Below, piece after piece: positions 39,364-50,626 of a DNA stretch of 64,000 nt. The notes under the pieces were generated by a model that saw nothing but the letters and a program-made list of their open reading frames with translations, did no database searches and was not told where the DNA came from. The position numbers and the translations under genes were made by a program. The stretch is from contig JAEEHV010000009.1 in the NCBI GenBank assembly GCA_016280955.1, positions 1 through 64,000 on the forward strand, given 5' to 3'. Each line of letters starts with the position of its first letter. Positions within the stretch are counted from its first letter, which is position 1. Origin of the DNA: Candidatus Gastranaerophilales bacterium (lineage in GTDB: Bacteria > Cyanobacteriota > Vampirovibrionia > Gastranaerophilales > Gastranaerophilaceae).

Positions 39364-40371
39364 CTATGTTTTATTATATATACTGTCGGCTATTAAAAAA
39401 TTCATTCTTTTTATATCATAATTTTCTTCAAATTTGTTGCCGTTTTGATAAAATTTATTTAGTTCTTTATCATAATAATCTCCTGCTTTAAAAGTTTTAG
39501 CATCTATTTTGGGAATAGATGTGTACTTTTTAGGAAATTGTCTGTCCTCCATCATTTCTATATACAATCTGTCAGAGAAATCCCATCGGTTCGGTCTTGC
39601 CCAATATTCTGCATGAGGACAATCATCAAATATAAAGTTTTCATTTTTAAAACCATCGCATTGCGTAATTGGACAAAATTTTACTTTTTTACCTTCGTAA
39701 ATGTTTATTTCAGATAATGCAAGAAATTTTCGGAAATTTCGCAAGCTGTATCCTTCAAAGTTGTAGTCTGTTATAATAATTGGCTTTTTCGTAGTTCTTG
39801 CCAACTCATTGGTTAAACCAATTGTATCAAGGTATTTTTTATAAGCATTAACCAAATCCTGTGAAAAATTTTCAATATCCTTTGTATGCATGTGCGACAG
39901 AGGACAATACTTAACTTCTTCCCCTTGAAATTCCAAGTATTTTCCAAGGAATGCGGGAGAACGACCTAATGATACAAATATAAAACCATTCGGGAATTTT
40001 TTATGCATTTGCTCCGAAAAATATTTTCCGAAATTGAGAATAAAATTGATAGTTTTATTATCAGAATCCAATAAATATTTACCAATATCCCTCATCGTTG
40101 TTAATTCTTTTGGTAATAATTTTTTGTACTCTTTGAGCCCAAAAACAGAACTGCGATCTAATATTTTTTGTACATCCCATACAAGTTGTATATCCGGCAA
40201 CGAAGATTTAAATGATATATTTTCCCCATATTTATTAGGGTTTATGTTTATATTTGCACAATATGGATTATTTATAGCAGAAACTTTAGCTTTACTTTCA
40301 GATTTTTGACGGCTGAAGTATGTTCCTGCATATTTATTAGGCAATATATTATAATTACATGTAATATTCAC
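39364..40371 (-). CDS. Hypothetical protein with FKS leader and phosphoribosyltransferase-like segment
   Basis: A 335-residue protein with a GTG start at 40371 (aagaaag upstream). The N-terminal ~55 residues are Asn/Tyr-rich and end in GENISFKSSLPD. Residues ~130-150 (KFPNGFIFVSLGRSPAFLGKYL) and ~215-225 (KPIIITDYNFEGYSLRNF) sit in the places and have the strand-loop character of phosphoribosyltransferases, where the second would be the PRPP loop, but the acidic pair is not standard. I do not recognise a family. It is divergent from the RYAGPP-repeat gene, 125 bases away. Confidence 0.6.
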   Translation of the reverse strand: MNITCNYNILPNKYAGTYFSRQKSESKAKVSAINNPYCANININPNKYGENISFKSSLPDIQLVWDVQKILDRSSVFGLKEYKKLLPKELTTMRDIGKYLLDSDNKTINFILNFGKYFSEQMHKKFPNGFIFVSLGRSPAFLGKYLEFQGEEVKYCPLSHMHTKDIENFSQDLVNAYKKYLDTIGLTNELARTTKKPIIITDYNFEGYSLRNFRKFLALSEINIYEGKKVKFCPITQCDGFKNENFIFDDCPHAEYWARPNRWDFSDRLYIEMMEDRQFPKKYTSIPKIDAKTFKAGDYYDKELNKFYQNGNKFEENYDIKRMNFLIADSIYNKT

Positions 40372-40442
40372 AATATTAAAACTTTCTTATAATGCAAAAA
40401 CCTGTAATAAATATTTTTGCTACATACCAGCAGTTATACTTG

Positions 40443-40471
40443 CTTGTGTTTTTTCTAATCCATGATATAAT
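40443..40471 (+). promoter_or_regulatory. Promoter of the RYAGPP-repeat gene
   Basis: An extended -10 (tg-a-tataat, hexamer 40466-40471) with a TTGTGT at 40444-40449 as a partial -35 (16-base spacer). The leader then carries aaaagga before the ATG at 40497. Confidence 0.55.
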
Positions 40472-40496
40472 AACATATATAAAAGGAATATATATC

Positions 40497-40979
40497 ATGG
40501 CAAAAAATTCAGAAAATTTTAATAAGCAAATAACTGCTTATGTTGTTTTGTCGGCATCATTGGTTATGCCTGCTGTTATTGGAGAACCGGCTGCTGTAAG
40601 TGCAGATCCGATGATTGTAAATCCTGTTAATATACAAGCTCCAATGTTGAGGTATGCCGGGCCGCCAAATCCTGCAGTTGATATTACGCCTGTTGCTCCG
40701 GTAGTAAGGTATGCCGGGCCGCCGAATCCTGCTATTATTGATGCTGTACCTGTAAATATTAAGACTCCGGATACCGGTCTTGTTCCGGTAATGAGATATG
40801 CCGGACCGCCAAACCCTGCAATGTATTCGGAAGCGACTAAAAATGCTGTTCCTGCTTCACTTTCTACACAGGCATCACAGATGAATGTACAGATAAATAG
40901 TAATCTTGGTCCAATAAATAATAATGTAAATAACTTTGGCGGCATTCAGATTGCTCCCGACCATTTTATATTTAAGTAG
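40497..40979 (+). CDS. Secreted-type repeat protein, putative precursor for radical SAM modification
   Basis: 160 residues from the ATG at 40497 (aaaagga upstream); an in-frame ATG at 40392 lies before the promoter and is rejected. The N-terminus has charged residues then a hydrophobic stretch (ITAYVVLSASLVMPAVIG) ending near AAVSA, as in a Sec signal peptide. Three copies of RYAGPPNPA begin at residues 52, 71 and 100, each preceded by Met/Val/Leu and a 'P-V/M' pair and separated by Pro/Val/Ile-rich spacers. The C-terminal 45 residues are Asn/Gln-rich with NNFGGIQIAPDHF. The radical SAM gene follows after 8 bases. Precursor role is inference from repeats, signal and partner. Confidence 0.75.
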   Translation: MAKNSENFNKQITAYVVLSASLVMPAVIGEPAAVSADPMIVNPVNIQAPMLRYAGPPNPAVDITPVAPVVRYAGPPNPAIIDAVPVNIKTPDTGLVPVMRYAGPPNPAMYSEATKNAVPASLSTQASQMNVQINSNLGPINNNVNNFGGIQIAPDHFIFK

Positions 40980-40987
40980 GATTTAAA

Positions 40988-42019
40988 ATGTATAAATTAA
41001 ACACAGTGGTTTGGGAAATAACTTTAAAGTGCAATATTCATTGCCTTCATTGTGGTTCTTCTGCTGATTACAATGCCAGAAACAATGAACTATCTACATC
41101 AGAAGCTTTGGATTTGATTGAACAATTGTCAGATTTGGGGTGCCGTAGAGTTGTGTTATCAGGAGGCGAACCATTTTTAAGGCAAGACTGGGCCGTTTTA
41201 TCTTTAAGAATAAGAGACCTCGGTATGCATGTGTCATATATCTCTAACGGTTATGTTATAAATGATGATATTATTGATTTATTAAAAATAATTCAGCCGA
41301 TTGGTATAAGTTTTAGTTTAGACGGTTCTAATGCTGATACCCATGATTATATAAGAGGGAAAAAAGGTGTATTTGAACGTTGCATCAAGGCTCTGCATGA
41401 CACAACAAAAGCTGGTTTGTATTCTTCTGCCGTAACTTCTGTTCATAAAAAGAATATTAATGAATTAGAAGACATTTTAGCTATACTGCTTGATAACGGT
41501 GTACATGCATGGCAAGTTCAAACAGCAACTCCACAGGGAAGAATGCCTAAAGAATTAGCACTGAATGATGAAGAATATTACAGACTTGCGGAATTTATAT
41601 CTGACAAAAGAAAAAAATATAATAATCTTATAAATATATACGAAGCTGATTGTGTAGGTTATTATTCATCAATCTTGGACGGCTTGTATTGTAAAAGCTG
41701 GGTAGGCTGTCAGGCAGGTTTACAGGTTCTTGGCATTGAAAGTGACGGAGCAATTAAAGGTTGTCTTTCCCTGCACGGAGAGCCGTTTATTGAAGGTAAC
41801 GTAAGGGAGAAACCTTTGCGTGAAATCTGGGAATCTAAAGACGGATTTAAGTTCAACAGACGTTTTTCTCCCGATTTATTGCAGGGAATATGCAAAAATT
41901 GTAAATGGGGTGCAATCTGCAGGGGTGGTTGTACCGAGAAAGCGATAACCTGTACGGGCAGTCCTTATGAAAGTCCTTACTGTCTTTATAACTATGAAAA
42001 GACTCATAATAATTCCTGA
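40988..42019 (+). CDS. Radical SAM/SPASM peptide-modifying enzyme
   Basis: 343 residues. The radical SAM cluster is Cys15-x3-Cys19-x2-Cys22 (CNIHCLHC), with GGEPF at 59-63. The C-terminal SPASM domain has Cys235, Cys241 and Cys259, then Cys302-x2-Cys305-x5-Cys311-x3-Cys315 and Cys322/Cys332, enough for two auxiliary 4Fe-4S clusters. SPASM enzymes mostly modify ribosomal peptides (C-C, thioether or ether crosslinks, epimerisation). It follows the RYAGPP-repeat gene by 8 bases in an evident operon. No leader-binding RRE domain is visible in the N-terminus. The chemistry cannot be told from sequence. Confidence 0.9.
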   Translation: MYKLNTVVWEITLKCNIHCLHCGSSADYNARNNELSTSEALDLIEQLSDLGCRRVVLSGGEPFLRQDWAVLSLRIRDLGMHVSYISNGYVINDDIIDLLKIIQPIGISFSLDGSNADTHDYIRGKKGVFERCIKALHDTTKAGLYSSAVTSVHKKNINELEDILAILLDNGVHAWQVQTATPQGRMPKELALNDEEYYRLAEFISDKRKKYNNLINIYEADCVGYYSSILDGLYCKSWVGCQAGLQVLGIESDGAIKGCLSLHGEPFIEGNVREKPLREIWESKDGFKFNRRFSPDLLQGICKNCKWGAICRGGCTEKAITCTGSPYESPYCLYNYEKTHNNS

Positions 42020-42558
42020 AGTAAATTGTTTGCCTGTGTAAACTGAGGATTTAATTCAAGAGATTTTTTGACATTTATGATTGCATTGTCTTTGTCTTTT
42101 AAACCCCAGTATGCCAATCCGATATCATAGTAATTCTTAAAATATTTTTCATCCAGTAAAATAGATTTTTTAAAATAATTTATTGCCAATTTATAATCAT
42201 TATTCAAAATCCATAAATTCCCATATAAATTGTATGCTTCAGCATCCTGCGGTGCATATTTGATAGCTTGTTCAAGATATGTTTTTGCAATATCAAAATC
42301 TTTAATAACATCAATATAAATTCTTGCAAGATTATTTAATGAGCGAACATTGCCGGAATCCAAAGCAATCGACTTTTTGTAATATGCTACGGACATTTCG
42401 TATTCTCCCAGTACATCATATACAAGTCCTATGCTGTAATAACTTACCGAATTATCCAAATTTTCCGATAAAATTTTGTAGTATAGTTTCAGCGATTCTT
42501 TATATTGACCGCTATAGTACAGGTTGTATGCATCAGTAAGAGTTTTTTTAATATCCAT
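42004..42558 (-). CDS. TPR-repeat protein
   Basis: A 184-residue protein made of about five tetratricopeptide repeats (ESLKLYYKILSENLDNSVSYYSIGL split; EAYNLYGNLWILNNDYKLAINYF; KNYYDIGLAYWGLKDKDNAI). No signal or membrane segment. It is convergent with the radical SAM gene and overlaps its last 16 bases, so its role in that system is not implied. A gagaag site precedes the ATG. Confidence 0.85.
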   Translation of the reverse strand: MDIKKTLTDAYNLYYSGQYKESLKLYYKILSENLDNSVSYYSIGLVYDVLGEYEMSVAYYKKSIALDSGNVRSLNNLARIYIDVIKDFDIAKTYLEQAIKYAPQDAEAYNLYGNLWILNNDYKLAINYFKKSILLDEKYFKNYYDIGLAYWGLKDKDNAIINVKKSLELNPQFTQANNLLQELL

Positions 42559-43107: not shown

Positions 43108-43184
43108 CATTTATTAAATCGAAAAATTATGCTATTATGTAGAATATATTGCAAGCTAAAAAACTTGTTTATAAGAGGGGGTAT

Positions 43185-43586
43185 ATGAACTATAAGTTAA
43201 TTGATATGAATCTTTTTGGGGATGAAAACGGAAGGTTAATATCAATCCAGCAAAATAGTAATTGTGACTTTGATATAAAGAGAGTTTTTTACATTTTTGA
43301 TACCAAACCGGGGATTGTAAGAGGAGCACATGCTAACAGAAATTCTGAATTTTTGCTGATAGCAATTAACGGCAGCTGTAAAGTTAAAATTGATGACGGT
43401 AAAAATGTTGAAATAGTAGAACTCAACTCTCCCCATATAGCTTTGTATTTAGACAAAATGTTATGGAAAGAGATGTACGATTTTTCTTATAATGCAATTT
43501 TGCTTGTATGTACTAATACCGAATATGATGAAAAAGAATATATAAGGAATTATCAATCATATCTGGAGGCGGTTGGTAATGCTTGA
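43185..43586 (+). CDS. FdtA/QdtA-type sugar 3,4-ketoisomerase (cupin)
   Basis: 133 residues from the ATG at 43185 (gaggggg upstream). The cupin core RGAHANRNSEFLLIAINGSCKV and LDKMLWKEMYDFS match dTDP-4-keto-6-deoxyglucose 3,4-ketoisomerases (R-G-x-H-A-H...). The product is a 3-keto sugar that a PLP aminotransferase turns into a 3-amino-3,6-dideoxyhexose; that partner (DegT family) lies at 52.99 kb. It is the first gene of the glycan locus, overlapping the FkbH-like gene by 8 bases. Final sugar (Fuc3N versus Qui3N) cannot be told. Confidence 0.8.
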   Translation: MNYKLIDMNLFGDENGRLISIQQNSNCDFDIKRVFYIFDTKPGIVRGAHANRNSEFLLIAINGSCKVKIDDGKNVEIVELNSPHIALYLDKMLWKEMYDFSYNAILLVCTNTEYDEKEYIRNYQSYLEAVGNA

Positions 43587-45156
43587 ATCTCAAAATTTGA
43601 TTTTTGAACAAAATTTATCAAGAATAGAACTTTTAAACTACAAGCCAAAATCAGATAATATAAAAAAAATTTCCGTGTACAGAAATCACTCTTTTGAACT
43701 TGTAGAAAATACTATCCCTTTATACCTTGATTATGCCGGAATAAAAGCAATATTTAGCTATAGTGATTATGATGACTCAATGAGCTTTTTGGATATTGAT
43801 TTAACCTCCGATATGCTGATTCTGTGGATAGATTTAACCCGTTATAAAGAAGGTTCGGAAGATTTTATAAAAGAAAGAATTAATTATCTTTCCGAAATTT
43901 ATTCCGGACAAATTTTATTCGTTCCGTTTGGGGGAAATATAACTCTGAATCTACCAAATATTACCGTATTTGATTTATCGGAAATTGAAAAATTTTTAGG
44001 CGAAAAATATACCGATTTAAGAATGGAAACATTTTCCGGCACAAAACTGAGTTCGAAAGCATTATTAATGATATCAAAAGAGCTTGGTTTAAAATATATT
44101 CCTGCCTGTCTTTTAACCCCGATAAAAGCAGTCATCGTTGATTTGGATAATACTTTGTATAAAGGTGTTCTCGGTGAAGACGGTTATAAAAATATTGAAT
44201 TGACGGAAGGACATAAAAAGCTGCAGCAAAAACTTGCAGAATTGGAGTCAAAAGGATTTTTTATCTGTGTTGCGTCAAAAAATGAACCTGAAGACGTTAA
44301 AGAGCTGTTCAAAATGAGGGACGATTTTCCGCTAAAACCGGATAAAATCACAAAATTCTGTGTTTCCTGGAATCCTAAACCAGAAGCAATAAGAGAATTA
44401 AAGAGTTTTTTGAATATAAATGAAAAAGATATGCTGTTTATTGATGATAACATTGGTGAAATTGTTTCCGTCAAAGAGCAGTTTCCTGATATAAATATTA
44501 TTCTTGCACAGGATAATGCCCAAAAAACATTGGAAATATTGTCAAATTATCCCCGTATGACAAAATTTAATATTAATTATGAAGACTTAATCCGTAAACA
44601 AGACACTCAGCTCAATGAACGCAGAAAAATGTTACAGGAAACATTGTCCGGCGAAGAATTTTTAAAAACTTTGGAAATGGAACTGACATACTATTTTAAC
44701 AACAAATCTCAGATAAAAAGATTTTCTGAACTTGCAAACAAGACTAATCAGTTCATCTTTTCATATAAAAGATATTCCGAAAAAGAAACTGAAAATTTAA
44801 TGAATGATAAAAATTCGCTCATCATAACCGTATCGCTCAAAGATAAGCTTTCAGACAGTGGTATTATCGGAGGGCTTGTTTTCAGAAACTGTTTTGATTA
44901 TATAAATATTGAAGAAGTTTTTGTAAGCTGCAGAGCTTTAGGGCGGGGAATTGATAAAAATATTGTTATTTATCCGATAAAACTGGCAACGGAATATTTT
45001 AATAATAACAAAGTTTGCCTGAATTTTACCAAAGGTGAAAGGAATAAACCGGCAGAAAATTTTATAAACGAGTATCTGAAAAATTTAATAAACAAAGCCG
45101 GAGTATTCGATAACAAAATCAATAATGATTATTTAACCGTAAAAATTGAGGGGTAA
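43579..45156 (+). CDS. FkbH-like HAD protein
   Basis: 525 residues from the ATG at 43579 (ggagg 10 bases upstream). Residues 1-180 are an N-terminal SGNH-like/unknown domain. The HAD core begins VIVDLDNTLYKGVLGEDG near 188, with FICVASKNE, SWNPKPEAI and MLFIDDN. The C-terminal third (KRFSELANKTNQFIFSYKRY; IINIEEVFVSCRALGRGI-like) is GNAT-like. FkbH proteins load a glyceryl group from 1,3-bisphosphoglycerate onto an acyl carrier protein; the ACP gene is next. In glycan loci they are thought to supply glyceryl-type decorations. Substrate here is inference. Confidence 0.8.
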   Translation: MLESQNLIFEQNLSRIELLNYKPKSDNIKKISVYRNHSFELVENTIPLYLDYAGIKAIFSYSDYDDSMSFLDIDLTSDMLILWIDLTRYKEGSEDFIKERINYLSEIYSGQILFVPFGGNITLNLPNITVFDLSEIEKFLGEKYTDLRMETFSGTKLSSKALLMISKELGLKYIPACLLTPIKAVIVDLDNTLYKGVLGEDGYKNIELTEGHKKLQQKLAELESKGFFICVASKNEPEDVKELFKMRDDFPLKPDKITKFCVSWNPKPEAIRELKSFLNINEKDMLFIDDNIGEIVSVKEQFPDINIILAQDNAQKTLEILSNYPRMTKFNINYEDLIRKQDTQLNERRKMLQETLSGEEFLKTLEMELTYYFNNKSQIKRFSELANKTNQFIFSYKRYSEKETENLMNDKNSLIITVSLKDKLSDSGIIGGLVFRNCFDYINIEEVFVSCRALGRGIDKNIVIYPIKLATEYFNNNKVCLNFTKGERNKPAENFINEYLKNLINKAGVFDNKINNDYLTVKIEG

Positions 45157-45198
45157 ACATTTAGGGGTAAATATTTAGGGGGTAAATTTTAAGGGGTA
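45150..45198 (+). repeat. Short tandem repeats of ggggtaaa-attta before the ACP gene
   Basis: Three to four copies of a 14-16-base unit (ggggtaaacattta, ggggtaaatattta, ggggtaaatttta, ggggta). The first covers the FkbH stop codon, and the last serves as the ribosome site of the ACP gene. Confidence 0.7.
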
Positions 45199-45204
45199 GT
45201 AAAA

Positions 45205-45423
45205 ATGGAAAATAAAATTATAAACATTATTTCTTCCGTTACATCAATACCGGAGGATGAATTAAAGAAAAATACAGACGATGAAAACTTATGGGATTCA
45301 ATCCAAAAAGTTGAAATAGTTTTGGGGATAGAAGAAGAATTTGATATAATGTTTGAACAGGAAGAAATTGCAAATATGACAAATATTGCAAATATCTGTA
45401 AAATTACCGGGGAGAAGCTATAA
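45205..45423 (+). CDS. Acyl carrier protein
   Basis: A 72-residue acyl-carrier-protein domain with the phosphopantetheine serine in LWDSIQKVEIV (Ser32) and the usual four-helix pattern. It differs from fatty-acid ACP (which has DSLD) and is adjacent to an FkbH-like gene, so it is probably a dedicated carrier for that pathway. aaggggt lies eight bases before the ATG. Confidence 0.9.
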   Translation: MENKIINIISSVTSIPEDELKKNTDDENLWDSIQKVEIVLGIEEEFDIMFEQEEIANMTNIANICKITGEKL

Positions 45424-46404
45424 TTGCGGCACAATATAAAAATGTTCGGATACAGCTATAAATTACGTCCGATAGAATTAAGCGATGCTCAGTTCATTTT
45501 GGACGTAAGGCTTGAGGATGAAAAGAAAAGTAAATATATTCATAAAATCGAAAACAATATAAAATTACAGGAAAAATGGCTTAACGAATATTTTGAGCGG
45601 GAAAACGATTATTATTTTGTAATTGAGAATCTATTTTCCAAAGAAAAAGAAGGATTAATCGGCATTTATAATATTGACGGAAAATCTGCGGAGTGGGGAA
45701 GATGGATTCTGAAAGGCGGTTCCCTTGCTTCTTTTGAAAGTGTAATGCTTATATATAATGTCGGTTTTGAAAAACTTGGATTAGAAGAAATGTACACAAA
45801 AACAATCTCCGAAAATAAGCAGGTTGTAAATTTTCACACAGAACTTGGAGCAAAAAACAGACAGATAATAACAAATGGTGTTGAACTTGAAAATATAACC
45901 TATGATGTAACGGAACAATGTGTTACAAAAGAAATATATAATACCGAAATTAAGAATAAGCTAAAAGAAAGATGCAAAAAATTATTTGAACGAAATGTCA
46001 AAATTTATAACGGCAAGTTTAAATTCCATCACTACGGTATTGCATCAAAAAATATTCAGACCGGTTTTGAAAAATACAAAACGGACTACGTTCAGTCTGA
46101 CGGCTTTGAAGATGAACTTCAGGGAGTAAAAGGTTTATTTATTGAATCAGATACAAAACCAAGACTGGAGCTTTTGGAAAATCTCCCAAATTCGCATACG
46201 TTAGACTATTTCATAAATAACAATATTGAATGTTACCATGCCGGATATTTGGTTGATGATTATACAAAAATCTATAACTTTTTTATAAATAATCTGGGTG
46301 CAAAAATCATATCAGATACAAAAATATCAAAATACTTTAAAGGCAGAATATGCTTTTTAATGCTAAAAAACAAAGAAATTACAGAATTAATTGAGGCGGT
46401 ATAA
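45424..46404 (+). CDS. GNAT acetyltransferase fused to a VOC/glyoxalase-like domain
   Basis: 326 residues with a TTG start at 45424, correctly spaced from gggga in the preceding gene; an ATG at 45442 is possible. Residues ~8-175 are a GNAT domain of the sugar N-acetyltransferase kind (YKLRPIELSDAQFILDVRL; EWGRWILKGGSLAS; NKQVVNFHTELGAK). Residues ~200-326 have the beta-alpha-beta-beta-beta pattern of glyoxalase/VOC domains (FKFHHYGIASKNIQTGFEKY; YHAGYLVDDYTKIYNFF), usually metal-binding isomerases or dioxygenases. Placement after FkbH and ACP suggests acting on the carrier-bound product. The specific reaction is unknown. Confidence 0.7.
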   Translation: MRHNIKMFGYSYKLRPIELSDAQFILDVRLEDEKKSKYIHKIENNIKLQEKWLNEYFERENDYYFVIENLFSKEKEGLIGIYNIDGKSAEWGRWILKGGSLASFESVMLIYNVGFEKLGLEEMYTKTISENKQVVNFHTELGAKNRQIITNGVELENITYDVTEQCVTKEIYNTEIKNKLKERCKKLFERNVKIYNGKFKFHHYGIASKNIQTGFEKYKTDYVQSDGFEDELQGVKGLFIESDTKPRLELLENLPNSHTLDYFINNNIECYHAGYLVDDYTKIYNFFINNLGAKIISDTKISKYFKGRICFLMLKNKEITELIEAV

Positions 46405-46405
46405 A

Positions 46406-47734
46406 ATGAAAAATATTTGTATATTTTTTCCGGACAAAAGAATCGGCGGAGGTCCTTACTGGCTGACAGCATTAGCCAGGGAACTTGCAAAAGATAATAA
46501 CTATAAAATATACTACATTGATTATAAACAAGGCTTTGCCAGAACCTTAATAAAACCGGAAGATAATGTAACATTTATAGATTATGATGCAAAACAAAGA
46601 TATTGCCTTTTTGAAGAAGAATGTACGTTGTTTATGCCTATTTATGACCTGCACAGACTTCCTATTATAAATACAAAATCCAAGATTCTGTTTTTTAACT
46701 GGCATAATTTTTGCTTGCCTGCTTTAAAAAACAGTTCTAAATTTTTAAGATACGATATGAATTATTTTCTGACAGAAGTATTCAGCCATAATGCTCAAGT
46801 TTTTCTGGACGGTGCTCATCGTAACAAATGCAACGATATAAGCGGTATAAATTTTAAACCTGATTATATTCCGCTTATTATGGATATGAAAAATGTTGAA
46901 CCTGTAAAAGGTTTAATAAATGATAATGAAATAAACATTGCAATACTCGGAAGAATTGTCCGGGATAAAATTCATTCCATAAACAATGTTATAAATCAGG
47001 CAATAAAATATAAGACAGATAAAAAAATAATAATACATATTATTGGTGACGGGGACAGGAAAAAAGATGTAAAAACTTCTGTTCCCGGCAATATTGAGAT
47101 TCGTTTCTGCGGTGTAATAAAAGATAAAGAATTGGATGAATACTTATTGAAAAATGTTGATATACTGTTTGCAATGGGTAATTCAGTGCTGAATGGTGCA
47201 TCAGTCGGTATTCCATCCTATATTATTCCGAGTGCGGAATATGAATTTAATTGTGATAAATTTGTATTTCTGCCCGAAACAACAGATTATATAGCAGGAT
47301 TTTACTATAACCAAATTAAAGAACTTAATTTGAATGTGGTAGATTTTGAAACGGCAATAAATAATGTATATGCAAATAACAATAAATATGAACTGGGCAA
47401 AAAATGCTATGATTATATAAACCAGAATTTTAATGCAGCAAAGGTTTGTGAAAAATTTAAAGAAGCTCTTGATAATACTACGTTATATTACACAACAATC
47501 GGGTTAATAAAAAGTGTACAAGATGTCAAAAAGATTACTAAAAGAAAACTTTCGTTCAAATATAAAATTCTTGATAAAATATGGCGCTATCATAAAAAAA
47601 GAATAGGTAATTTTAAAAATATAGAATCGGAAAGACCATTATTATACTCTATTCTAAACAAAATAGAAAATTATTTACTTGAAAAGAATGTTATTATGGA
47701 AGATTTGGTAGATGGTTTTAAAGACACAAAATAA
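46406..47734 (+). CDS. Glycosyltransferase, GT4-like
   Basis: 442 residues from the ATG at 46406 (gaggcgg upstream; a TTG at 46391 is rejected). It begins MKNICIFFPDKRIGGGPYW, with 'G-G-G' at the acceptor side as in GT4, and a C-terminal donor domain (NIAILGRIVRDKIHSINNVI; IEIRFCGVIKDKELDEYLLKN; VDILFAMGNSVLNGASVGIPS). It is a close tandem paralogue of residues 1-~435 of the next gene. Donor and acceptor are unknown. Confidence 0.8.
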   Translation: MKNICIFFPDKRIGGGPYWLTALARELAKDNNYKIYYIDYKQGFARTLIKPEDNVTFIDYDAKQRYCLFEEECTLFMPIYDLHRLPIINTKSKILFFNWHNFCLPALKNSSKFLRYDMNYFLTEVFSHNAQVFLDGAHRNKCNDISGINFKPDYIPLIMDMKNVEPVKGLINDNEINIAILGRIVRDKIHSINNVINQAIKYKTDKKIIIHIIGDGDRKKDVKTSVPGNIEIRFCGVIKDKELDEYLLKNVDILFAMGNSVLNGASVGIPSYIIPSAEYEFNCDKFVFLPETTDYIAGFYYNQIKELNLNVVDFETAINNVYANNNKYELGKKCYDYINQNFNAAKVCEKFKEALDNTTLYYTTIGLIKSVQDVKKITKRKLSFKYKILDKIWRYHKKRIGNFKNIESERPLLYSILNKIENYLLEKNVIMEDLVDGFKDTK

Positions 47735-47764
47735 AAAGTTCAACAATACCGGAGGAGTATAAAA

Positions 47765-50626
47765 ATGAAAAATATATGTATATTTTTCCCCGAAAAAAAA
47801 ATTGGCGGAGGAATATATTGGCTGGTTCGTTTAGCTAAAGAATTAGCAAAGGATAACAGTTATTCGGTCTATTATATAGATTATAAAGAAGGTTTTGCCA
47901 GAACTCTTATTGATGAAGAAAAAGATAACGTAAAATTTATAGATTATGATGCAAAACAAAGGTATTGTCTTTTTGATGAAGAGTGTACTTTAGTATTACC
48001 AATACATAATTTGTATCGCCTTCCAATCGTCAATCCAAAATCAAAGGTTCTTTTTATAAACTGGAATAATGTCTGTCTGCCATTATTGAAAAGACATTGC
48101 AAATTCTTGAGATATGACATGAATTATTTTCTTATGGAAATATTTAGTCATAATGCTCAAGTGTTTGTAGATGGTACTCACAGAGATAAATGCAATCAAA
48201 TCTGCGAAATTAATTTTAAACCAAACTATATTCCCTTAATGATGGAGCATAAAGAGCCTCTTTTTGTAAAAAATATTATTAATGAAGATGAAATAAATAT
48301 TGCAATACTCGGAAGAATTGTGCCTGACAAAGTTCATGCTATAAATAATGTCATTAATCAGGCAAATAATTATAAAACAGATAAGAAAATAATATTTCAT
48401 ATTATTGGTGACGGAGTTGCAAAAGATAAAATTAAAACAAGACATTCCAAAAAATTTGAGGTACGTTTATGCGGAGTTATAAAGGAAGACGAACTGGATA
48501 ATTATTTATTGAAAAATATTGATGTTTTGTTCGCAATGGGTACTTCCGTCTTAAACGGAGCATCGGTTGGAATCCCGTCATATATTATTCCGACGGAAAA
48601 CAAGCCCTTTAATTTTAATGAATTTGTATTTTTACCTTATACAACAGATTTAATAACAGGATTTTATCCTAACCAAAAAGACAGGTTTAGGTTAAAAACA
48701 ATAAAATTTGAGGATGTAATTGAAAAAATATATATTAATAACCAAAAATATGAGCTTGGGCAACAGTGCTATGAATATGTAAATAAAAATTTTACTGCCT
48801 CTTTTGGGTGCGAACAATTTAAAAAAGCCTTAAACGATACGACTTTAAGCTACACTACAGTTGCACAAATAAAAAATATACAGGAAGTTAAAGCAAATGC
48901 GGAACGCAAACTTCCGCTAAAATACAAAATTCTTGATAAAATTTGGCGTCACAATAAAAGAAAAACTGGTGATTTTAAAAAGCTAAAATTTATAGAACCT
49001 GTAAGGTATTTTATTTTAAATAAAATAGAAACACACCTGTTGAATAAGGGTGTAATAATGGAAGATTTATTGAGCGGCTTTAAAGAAGTCAGTTTGCCGT
49101 TAAGCAAATCATCAACTTTGGTGTTAAAAGAATTTAACAGAGTGTATTTATTTAACAAACTTCATTTATTTAACATATTAATTAATAATGACACAATACA
49201 AATTGAATTCAAAAAAGAAGAAAAAGATTTTGAGTTTACATTCTTGGATGCGGTATTGCTTGAATTTATCATTAAGTTTACAAGGGTAAAAAATAAATAT
49301 GATAATTTGTATTTATATTTATTCGGTTTTATACCATTTCTAAAAATAGAAACCCGCACGGTTCCGTATGAAAAAATGAATCCGGAGCCGGCAGATTTTT
49401 CATCTCACAAAAATGTATTAAAAAATCTGAGAAAAAAATACAAAAGTGAAGAAAAAATAAATGTACTGTTCTTTGTTTCAAGAATAAGCTGTTTTATATG
49501 GGAAAGGTTATATAACTTATTTAAAAATGATTCCAAGTTTAATGTGACAATCTGTGTTATTCCGTTTATTTTAGACGGGCAGACAGAAATGGAAAAGCAA
49601 TTAAATTTAACGTACAACAAATTAAAAGAAGAAGGTTATAATGTTATAAAAGTTTATGACGAAAAAAATGATACCTATTTTGATGTTGCAAATGAATTGA
49701 AACCTGACATAATATTTCATAATAAAGGCTGGTACAGATTTTTACCACGAGGTTACCATGTTTTTAATTATCCGCAATGCCTGAATTATATTGTTGAATA
49801 CGGATTTTCCGGAGCAAAAAACCCTGACGGACATTTCAATTTAGATGCACATTGGCTTGCTGATAAATACTTTTTACCGTCAAAAGAGCATTTGAACATG
49901 GCAAAAGAACTTTCAAAAATTAAAGGTAAAAACTGTATGTTTTTAGGGTATCCTAAGTTTGATAATTTTTTTGATAAAAATTATATTCCCAAAGATGTTT
50001 GGAAACCTCAGGAGAAAAAGAAAAAAAGAATAATCTGGGCCCCGCATTGGTTGTTTGACGGCGGAGATATGTATAAAACCGCTACTTTTCATGAAATATA
50101 TGACTTTATGCTCCGGCTTGCAGAAAAATATTCAGACTGCGTTCAATTTGCATTCAAACCGCACCCGATGCTTTATAAACGTTGTTTAAATAAAACAATT
50201 GATGATAAAGTATGGACGGAAGAAGTTATTGATAAATATTACAAGGAATGGGAAACAAAGCCTAATTGTCAGCTGGAGCAGGGAGCATTTGATGATTTAT
50301 TTTTAACTTCTGACGGGATGATTTTTGACAGTATTTCTTTTATGGCAGAATATATGGTCAGCGGAAAACCTTCATTGTTTACAGTATGCGAAAATTCAAA
50401 ACTTAACTTTGACAGCATGGGAGAAAAAGTATATTCTAAACTATATCATACAAAAAATCTGAAAGAAGATATTGAAAATTTTATTAACGAAGTCATAATT
50501 CAGGAAAATGATTATATGAAGGCAGAACGTGACAAGTTTGTAAAACAATATCTAATACCGCCTGAAGGCGGCAGTGCTGCTAAAAATATATACAATTACA
50601 TAAAAGGGGAGTTAAATGGAAAATAG
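47765..50626 (+). CDS. Two-domain transferase: GT4-like domain fused to CDP-glycerol glycerophosphotransferase-like domain
   Basis: 953 residues. Residues 1-~435 repeat the preceding glycosyltransferase (MKNICIFFPEKKIGGGIYW; NIAILGRIVPDKVHAINNV). A ~130-residue linker region follows, then from about 560 a domain resembling CDP-glycerol:polyglycerophosphate glycerophosphotransferase (TagF/TagB type): IIWAPHWLFDGGDMYKT, FAFKPHPMLYKR, and LFLTSDGMIFDSISFMAEYMVSGKPS (the 'S-D-x-S...E' block). The gene for the CDP-glycerol-making enzyme lies at 51.7 kb in the same operon. The likely role is adding phosphoglycerol to a glycan. Confidence 0.8.
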   Translation: MKNICIFFPEKKIGGGIYWLVRLAKELAKDNSYSVYYIDYKEGFARTLIDEEKDNVKFIDYDAKQRYCLFDEECTLVLPIHNLYRLPIVNPKSKVLFINWNNVCLPLLKRHCKFLRYDMNYFLMEIFSHNAQVFVDGTHRDKCNQICEINFKPNYIPLMMEHKEPLFVKNIINEDEINIAILGRIVPDKVHAINNVINQANNYKTDKKIIFHIIGDGVAKDKIKTRHSKKFEVRLCGVIKEDELDNYLLKNIDVLFAMGTSVLNGASVGIPSYIIPTENKPFNFNEFVFLPYTTDLITGFYPNQKDRFRLKTIKFEDVIEKIYINNQKYELGQQCYEYVNKNFTASFGCEQFKKALNDTTLSYTTVAQIKNIQEVKANAERKLPLKYKILDKIWRHNKRKTGDFKKLKFIEPVRYFILNKIETHLLNKGVIMEDLLSGFKEVSLPLSKSSTLVLKEFNRVYLFNKLHLFNILINNDTIQIEFKKEEKDFEFTFLDAVLLEFIIKFTRVKNKYDNLYLYLFGFIPFLKIETRTVPYEKMNPEPADFSSHKNVLKNLRKKYKSEEKINVLFFVSRISCFIWERLYNLFKNDSKFNVTICVIPFILDGQTEMEKQLNLTYNKLKEEGYNVIKVYDEKNDTYFDVANELKPDIIFHNKGWYRFLPRGYHVFNYPQCLNYIVEYGFSGAKNPDGHFNLDAHWLADKYFLPSKEHLNMAKELSKIKGKNCMFLGYPKFDNFFDKNYIPKDVWKPQEKKKKRIIWAPHWLFDGGDMYKTATFHEIYDFMLRLAEKYSDCVQFAFKPHPMLYKRCLNKTIDDKVWTEEVIDKYYKEWETKPNCQLEQGAFDDLFLTSDGMIFDSISFMAEYMVSGKPSLFTVCENSKLNFDSMGEKVYSKLYHTKNLKEDIENFINEVIIQENDYMKAERDKFVKQYLIPPEGGSAAKNIYNYIKGELNGK

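Follow-up and report, generated by a model that had tools for sequence, protein, structure and literature searches.

A repeat precursor and radical SAM/SPASM enzyme pair in a Gastranaerophilales genome, possibly a divergent splicease-like system

We analyzed a 64,000-nucleotide stretch of DNA from "Candidatus Gastranaerophilales bacterium" (here, the window) and found a RiPP-type pair, in which a gene for a probably exported protein with three exact RYAGPPNPA copies is followed by a radical SAM/SPASM maturase gene. The genome, which is small, low in GC, and flagellated, is in keeping with this order of non-photosynthetic cyanobacteria. From sequence comparison, the reading that we favor, at slightly better than even chances, is that of a divergent splicease-like system in which tyramine would be excised, with ca. 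135 Da lost per repeat, and the exported protein would come to carry alpha-ketoamides of Arg (or Lys). The pairing of such a precursor with a maturase had been predicted originally, and its conserved linkage in relatives agrees with that proposal. The features concerned are as follows (positions are those of the window).

40463..40471, forward strand: extended -10 element TGATATAAT; similar elements lie upstream of the precursors in loci L050 and L051 (second copy)
40497..40979, forward strand: precursor, a repeat protein of 160 aa, probably exported; related proteins are encoded in L050, L051 (as two tandem copies), and L052
40497..40604, forward strand: leader, predicted Sec signal peptide, residues 1 to 36, VSA/DP; read by eye, with the N termini in L050, L051, and L052 alike
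40650..40676, forward strand: repeat 1, RYAGPPNPA, residue 52
40707..40733, forward strand: repeat 2, RYAGPPNPA, residue 71
40794..40820, forward strand: repeat 3, RYAGPPNPA, residue 100
40932..40976, forward strand: C-terminal tail NFGGIQIAPDHFIFK; in the alignment of the closest precursors, it is conserved and has the consensus ...P-HYIFK
40988..42019, forward strand: radical SAM/SPASM maturase, 343 aa, predicted to be without an N-terminal RRE domain (Pfam, AF2 model, and fold matches)
42004..42558, reverse strand: TPR protein, 184 aa, convergent on the enzyme (Pfam TPR)

The start of the precursor at 40497 is preceded by AAAAGGA, and an alternative in-frame ATG at 40392 would give a 195-aa protein. 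The region originally singled out begins at 40443 and takes in the proposed promoter at 40463 to 40471. The extended -10 element itself was recovered, with its counterparts in L050 and L051, but no strong -35 was found near it, and a consensus promoter scan gave sites no more numerous than in shuffles. As had been claimed, the N terminus resembles a Sec signal sequence when judged by eye, with a basic start and then a hydrophobic stretch leading to VSA/DP. The DNA of the three RYAGPPNPA copies differs at synonymous third codon positions only. Since any 5-mer was present three times in just 3 of 20,000 shuffles of the precursor protein, the triplicated 9-mer is not attributable to chance. Along with the tail, the leader is conserved in the alignment of the closest precursors. 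The protein is Pro-rich, not Gly-rich, gave no NCBIfam or Pfam nif11 match, and found no relatives when used as a query on the genome contigs.

The enzyme ATG at 40988 follows the precursor stop at 40979 after a gap of 8 bases, just as originally described. Its predicted product matches the Pfam models Radical_SAM (7.3e-23) and SPASM (2.3e-8) and carries a full SPASM domain, the cysteines being C15xxxC19xxC22 and C302x2C305x5C311x3C315, together with C241, C259, and C332. The AlphaFold (AF2) model (mean pLDDT of 93.9) has the fold of RiPP SPASM maturases, with SkfB (Z of 29.5), SuiB (Z of 29.0), anSME, CteB, and PqqE as the closest folds. In SkfB and SuiB, the N-terminal part is a leader-binding RRE domain. 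Residue 1 of the model aligns at approximately residue 100 of both proteins; therefore, this domain appears to be missing from the window enzyme. The dN and dS values were ca. 0.10 and ca. 2.3, respectively, a comparison restricted to L050, because most enzyme pairs have reached saturation in dS. A reading of the enzyme as a phage feature was tried and rejected, viral contigs having given just distant radical-SAM matches (26 to 43% over parts).

Among the NCBIfam models, TIGR04103 scored highest (236 bits, versus a cut-off of 725), followed by TIGR03913 (212 bits, versus 591.75) and then by TIGR04133 (178) and heme/cofactor families; among relatives of the window enzyme, TIGR03913 sometimes ranks first.

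The TPR gene and the enzyme gene overlap by 16 bases at their 3' ends. A close homologue of the TPR protein was present in the same 4 of the 65 genus genomes as the RYAGP-type enzyme and absent from the other 61 at an E value of 1e-15, although these absences are slightly uncertain, given that TPR candidates are numerous and, in most genomes, were scored only in part. Precursor, enzyme, and TPR gene all occur in these same 4 of 65 genomes, and TPR homologues also lie near the enzymes in L130 to L132, L053, L054, L134, and L135. By this distribution, the TPR gene is a clade-specific companion, and its product may present the substrate to the enzyme. Neither a PlpY-like ORF nor an RRE gene adjoins the window enzyme, and the best genome-wide match to PqqD (19 bits) fell below the cut-off. 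As to the surrounding genes, the divergent upstream gene (39364 to 40371, reverse strand) encodes 335 aa without a Pfam match, and single NKYAGTY and NKYGEN segments at the N terminus of its product are perhaps due to chance. On the other side, the genes from 43149 to 50626 (forward strand) resemble, partly by eye, a surface-sugar cluster, with an FdtA-type isomerase (PF05523), a HAD-type/FkbH-like protein, an acyl carrier-like protein, an acetyltransferase, and glycosyltransferase-like proteins.

Precursor and enzyme stand side by side in genus genomes G000, G031, G029 (here with two precursors in tandem), and G013, with enzyme identities of 79 to 86%. Three congeners have the pair, as do two further genomes (enzyme identity of 69 to 73%), with three RYAGP repeats in L130 and eleven [KR]YAGP repeats in L131. 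A fifth genus member, G015, has just a remote enzyme paralogue at 39%. A search for co-occurrence, proposed together with the original prediction, thus found repeat and enzyme together in relatives, with the motif fixed and 3 to 11 copies of [RK]Y[AG]GP each; L050 has RYGG once, plus QYAVP. This linkage bears on the idea that the repeats stay unmodified, acting as a structural or binding motif of the exported protein, while the enzyme serves another substrate. Such an arrangement would suit those related enzyme loci at which no repeat gene was seen nearby. However, the two genes form one transcription unit, their linkage is kept over divergent genomes, and the motif changes with the enzyme clade, so that we find this idea very improbable.

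Within the order, the enzyme was found in 53 of 383 genomes. Most repeat proteins in the neighborhoods of 60 related enzymes have X-Tyr-[Gly/Ala]-...-Pro with a variable X (QPLYGVISPP, MLYGVDINPWP, LLYGIIEPPP, MYGVP/LLYGVP, KYAPPP, VYAYIPP, KYGANIGC, and RY[AG]GP). Both versions can occur in a single protein, as with KYGIPNPEP alongside RYAVPKPEP; L060, where the contig end truncates the enzyme gene, has such a mix of YG and YA. At distances of up to 700 bp from the enzyme, repeat ORFs with xY[GA]..P were enriched (26/187 versus 22/647; odds ratio, 4.6; p, 8e-7). We counted residues around Tyr in 102 motifs, using a pattern that requires Tyr with G, A, or M next to it (a separate clade is Tyr-less). 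The preceding residue was K in 31, R in 24, L in 20, M in 13, and V in 12, while the following one was A in 61, G in 38, and M in 3, that is, Ala or Gly in 99 of the 102.

These counts do not support the Arg-Tyr or Gly-Pro-Pro crosslinks, with losses of 2 Da, that had been originally proposed, as the residue before Tyr varies while Tyr plus Ala/Gly persists. Within the window group, the abundance of Arg directly before Tyr (23 of 30 motifs) would fit an Arg-Tyr macrocycle as in ryptides, and a three-residue cyclophane linking the Tyr ring to C-beta at i+2 would likewise cost 2 Da per repeat. Both have precedents, in the radical-SAM Arg-Tyr crosslinks of the RRR family (PMC13361665) and in Tyr cyclophanes (PMC11002830). 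However, the residue at Tyr+2 is Gly, without C-beta, in 28 of the 30 window-group motifs, which precludes a Tyr(i)-Cβ(i+2) cyclophane; the triceptide option was rejected on these grounds. Against the macrocycle, K, Q, L, M, or V precedes Tyr in relatives, including the QYAVP of L050, and a ryptide-type Arg-Tyr linkage, even if it were present in the window, would not explain the family. Taken together, we consider crosslinks of these two kinds improbable.

In the enzyme tree, a supported clade (98) joins the window enzyme to the RYAGP set and to L132, whose enzyme is 61% identical to that of the window and whose motifs are plain MYGVP/LLYGVP/PLYGVP. The precursors of the window and L132 were not significantly similar by BLASTP (E value of 1.7), and the similarity of their leaders is only suggestive. 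Members with Tyr-Ala motifs occur alongside Tyr-Gly members in at least two separate clades. The tree places the window enzyme apart from TIGR04103, in a branch of its own order; as the outgroups are distant, the kinship of the window clade to TIGR04103 rests mainly on HMM scores.

Several other repeat proteins adjoin enzymes of the family. A monophyletic Tyr-less set (100) of 16 enzymes (L058, L136 to L139, L141, L143, L144, L149, L151, L154, L159, L161, and L163 to L165) lies next to repeats of the type P[LIVM][AGS]G[LVNK][IV]xPP, inspected in most of them, with Ala, Gly, or Ser at the Tyr position. These enzymes have A243C, G249S, G23I, S261N, and V8T in common and possibly perform a different backbone reaction. 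L133 (1212 to 2822) and L054 (10901 to 12598) encode, near the enzyme, RTX calcium-binding proteins (PF00353) with embedded MYAVPP, KYAPP, and KYAIPP/KYALPP motifs. In L153, L160, and L162, the repeat proteins beside the enzyme have N-terminal LysM domains (PF01476), with the motifs xYAYIPP, MYAAP, and LYGIQTP. Upstream of a distant enzyme, L069 (3802 to 4170, reverse strand) has three IYY[IV]APIDR-type repeats, in which Ile or Val follows Tyr.

The PlpX "splicease" excises tyramine at XYG (PMC11002830, PMC10533398), and the products are alpha-keto-beta-amino acids (PMC11002830, PMC10533398, PMC10373908). According to a review, splicing of this kind occurs widely among bacteria, and the beta-residues give protease inhibition. 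Nif11-type precursors whose cores contain Tyr-Gly, usually as LYG or MYG, were found at 70 of 79 named cyanobacterial TIGR04103 loci, and 188 of 191 cores of the PlpX type have Tyr-Gly. The 79 loci leave out PlpX of Pleurocapsa PCC 7319, which is tied to TIGR04103 via the common motif and IPR026482, the latter presumably equivalent to TIGR04103. The small conserved ORF adjoining TIGR04103 genes would be PlpY. Spliceotides and the PlpX-PlpY splicease are reportedly the subject of work by Morinaka in 2018 and Scott in 2022, the latter said to be the primary survey.

We favor a splicease-like reading because the nearest families are TIGR04103 and TIGR03913, TIGR04103 loci having the XYG of tyramine-excising spliceases, and because the L132 enzyme adjoins plain MYG/LYG motifs. 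Against splicing stand the Tyr-Ala motif, the score of 236 rather than 725 bits, the lack of an adjacent PlpY-like or RRE gene, and the nearly equal score of TIGR03913. Since the enzyme family includes a Tyr-less clade, its chemistry may vary. Some other radical reaction at Tyr or its neighbors (desaturation, an ether, or a Tyr-Pro or Tyr-Ala crosslink) would yield an exported modified repeat polymer with an intact backbone. The closeness of the TIGR03913 score, the dependence of the splicing reading on motif and family, and the hint of divergent chemistry in Tyr-less and Tyr-Met motifs all speak for this option, but XYG is common to TIGR04103/spliceotide precursors and an enzyme as close as 61% is paired with canonical MYG/LYG; we regard it as rather unlikely.

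In the splicease-like system, the precursor would be made in the cytosol with its Sec-type leader, and the SPASM enzyme would act at the Tyr of every RY[AG]GP motif, the TPR protein perhaps taking the place of an RRE in presenting the substrate. Radical-SAM chemistry in the cytosol would then excise tyramine at each RY/AGP, giving Arg alpha-ketoamides, and the modified protein would leave via Sec. More speculatively, with at least three Arg/Lys ketoamides it could act as a polyvalent inhibitor toward trypsin-like proteases, or else as a reactive protein at the surface; Arg ketoamides are protease inhibitors, as in cyclotheonamide, and the guess at an inhibitor function is based on this. We propose, as a tentative extension that may well not hold, a distinct branch of tyramine-excising enzymes in gut-type cyanobacteria that would accept Tyr-Ala, use TPR rather than RRE proteins, and make Arg/Lys alpha-ketoamide arrays in surface-type proteins that are exported, in Sec-type, lipobox, LysM, and RTX contexts, with the Tyr-less sister branch performing a related backbone reaction. 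If the splicease-like reading is right, Tyr backbone splicing would be independent of Gly, nif11 leaders, and RRE, and it would take place on exported proteins of gut-type bacteria, whose Arg/Lys ketoamides could act against trypsin-like proteases of the host or of microbes. The series of YG, YA, YM, and Tyr-less motifs found in nature would be a set with which to dissect how spliceases work, and it would also supply short tags with which to label proteins.

In ryptides (RRR RaS-RiPPs) and in triceptides, with GrrM, radical-SAM enzymes likewise modify Arg-Tyr or the aromatics of short motifs. Unlike in ryptides, Arg is not conserved across the window relatives, and unlike in triceptides, there is no C-beta at Tyr+2 in window-group motifs. 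The suggested kinship to GrrA-type cyclophane systems found no support either, as TIGR04103 and TIGR03913 were nearest and GrrM was absent from the 25 top-scoring ones among 90 NCBIfam matches; GrrA-type precursors are Gly-rich, and the window precursor is Pro-rich. TIGR03913, the GDL motif peptide-associated maturase, is the second-best family, below its cut-off, and no GDL peptide was seen at the window locus. TIGR04103 (nif11-class peptide radical SAM maturase 3) is the best-scoring curated family, aligned over enzyme residues 3 to 334, but the window enzyme is shorter (343 versus ca. 412 aa) and falls far below the cut-off. Judged on sequence features, the window system is not filed as a TIGR04103 member; despite a spliceotide-like layout and motif, it lacks Tyr-Gly, a nif11 leader, an RRE partner, and a score above the TIGR04103 cut-off, which sets it apart from the characterized spliceotides. 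Where PlpX systems have Tyr-Gly with Leu or Met as X, the window motif is Tyr-Ala(-Gly-Pro), three times RYAG, X in the window group being basic (Arg, Lys); its leader is Sec-type instead of nif11/NHLP, and its companion is a TPR protein instead of an adjacent PlpY/RRE gene. Like PlpX systems, it has a SPASM radical-SAM enzyme adjoining a precursor with several X-Tyr-small motifs of variable X, and relatives of its enzyme use plain XYG.
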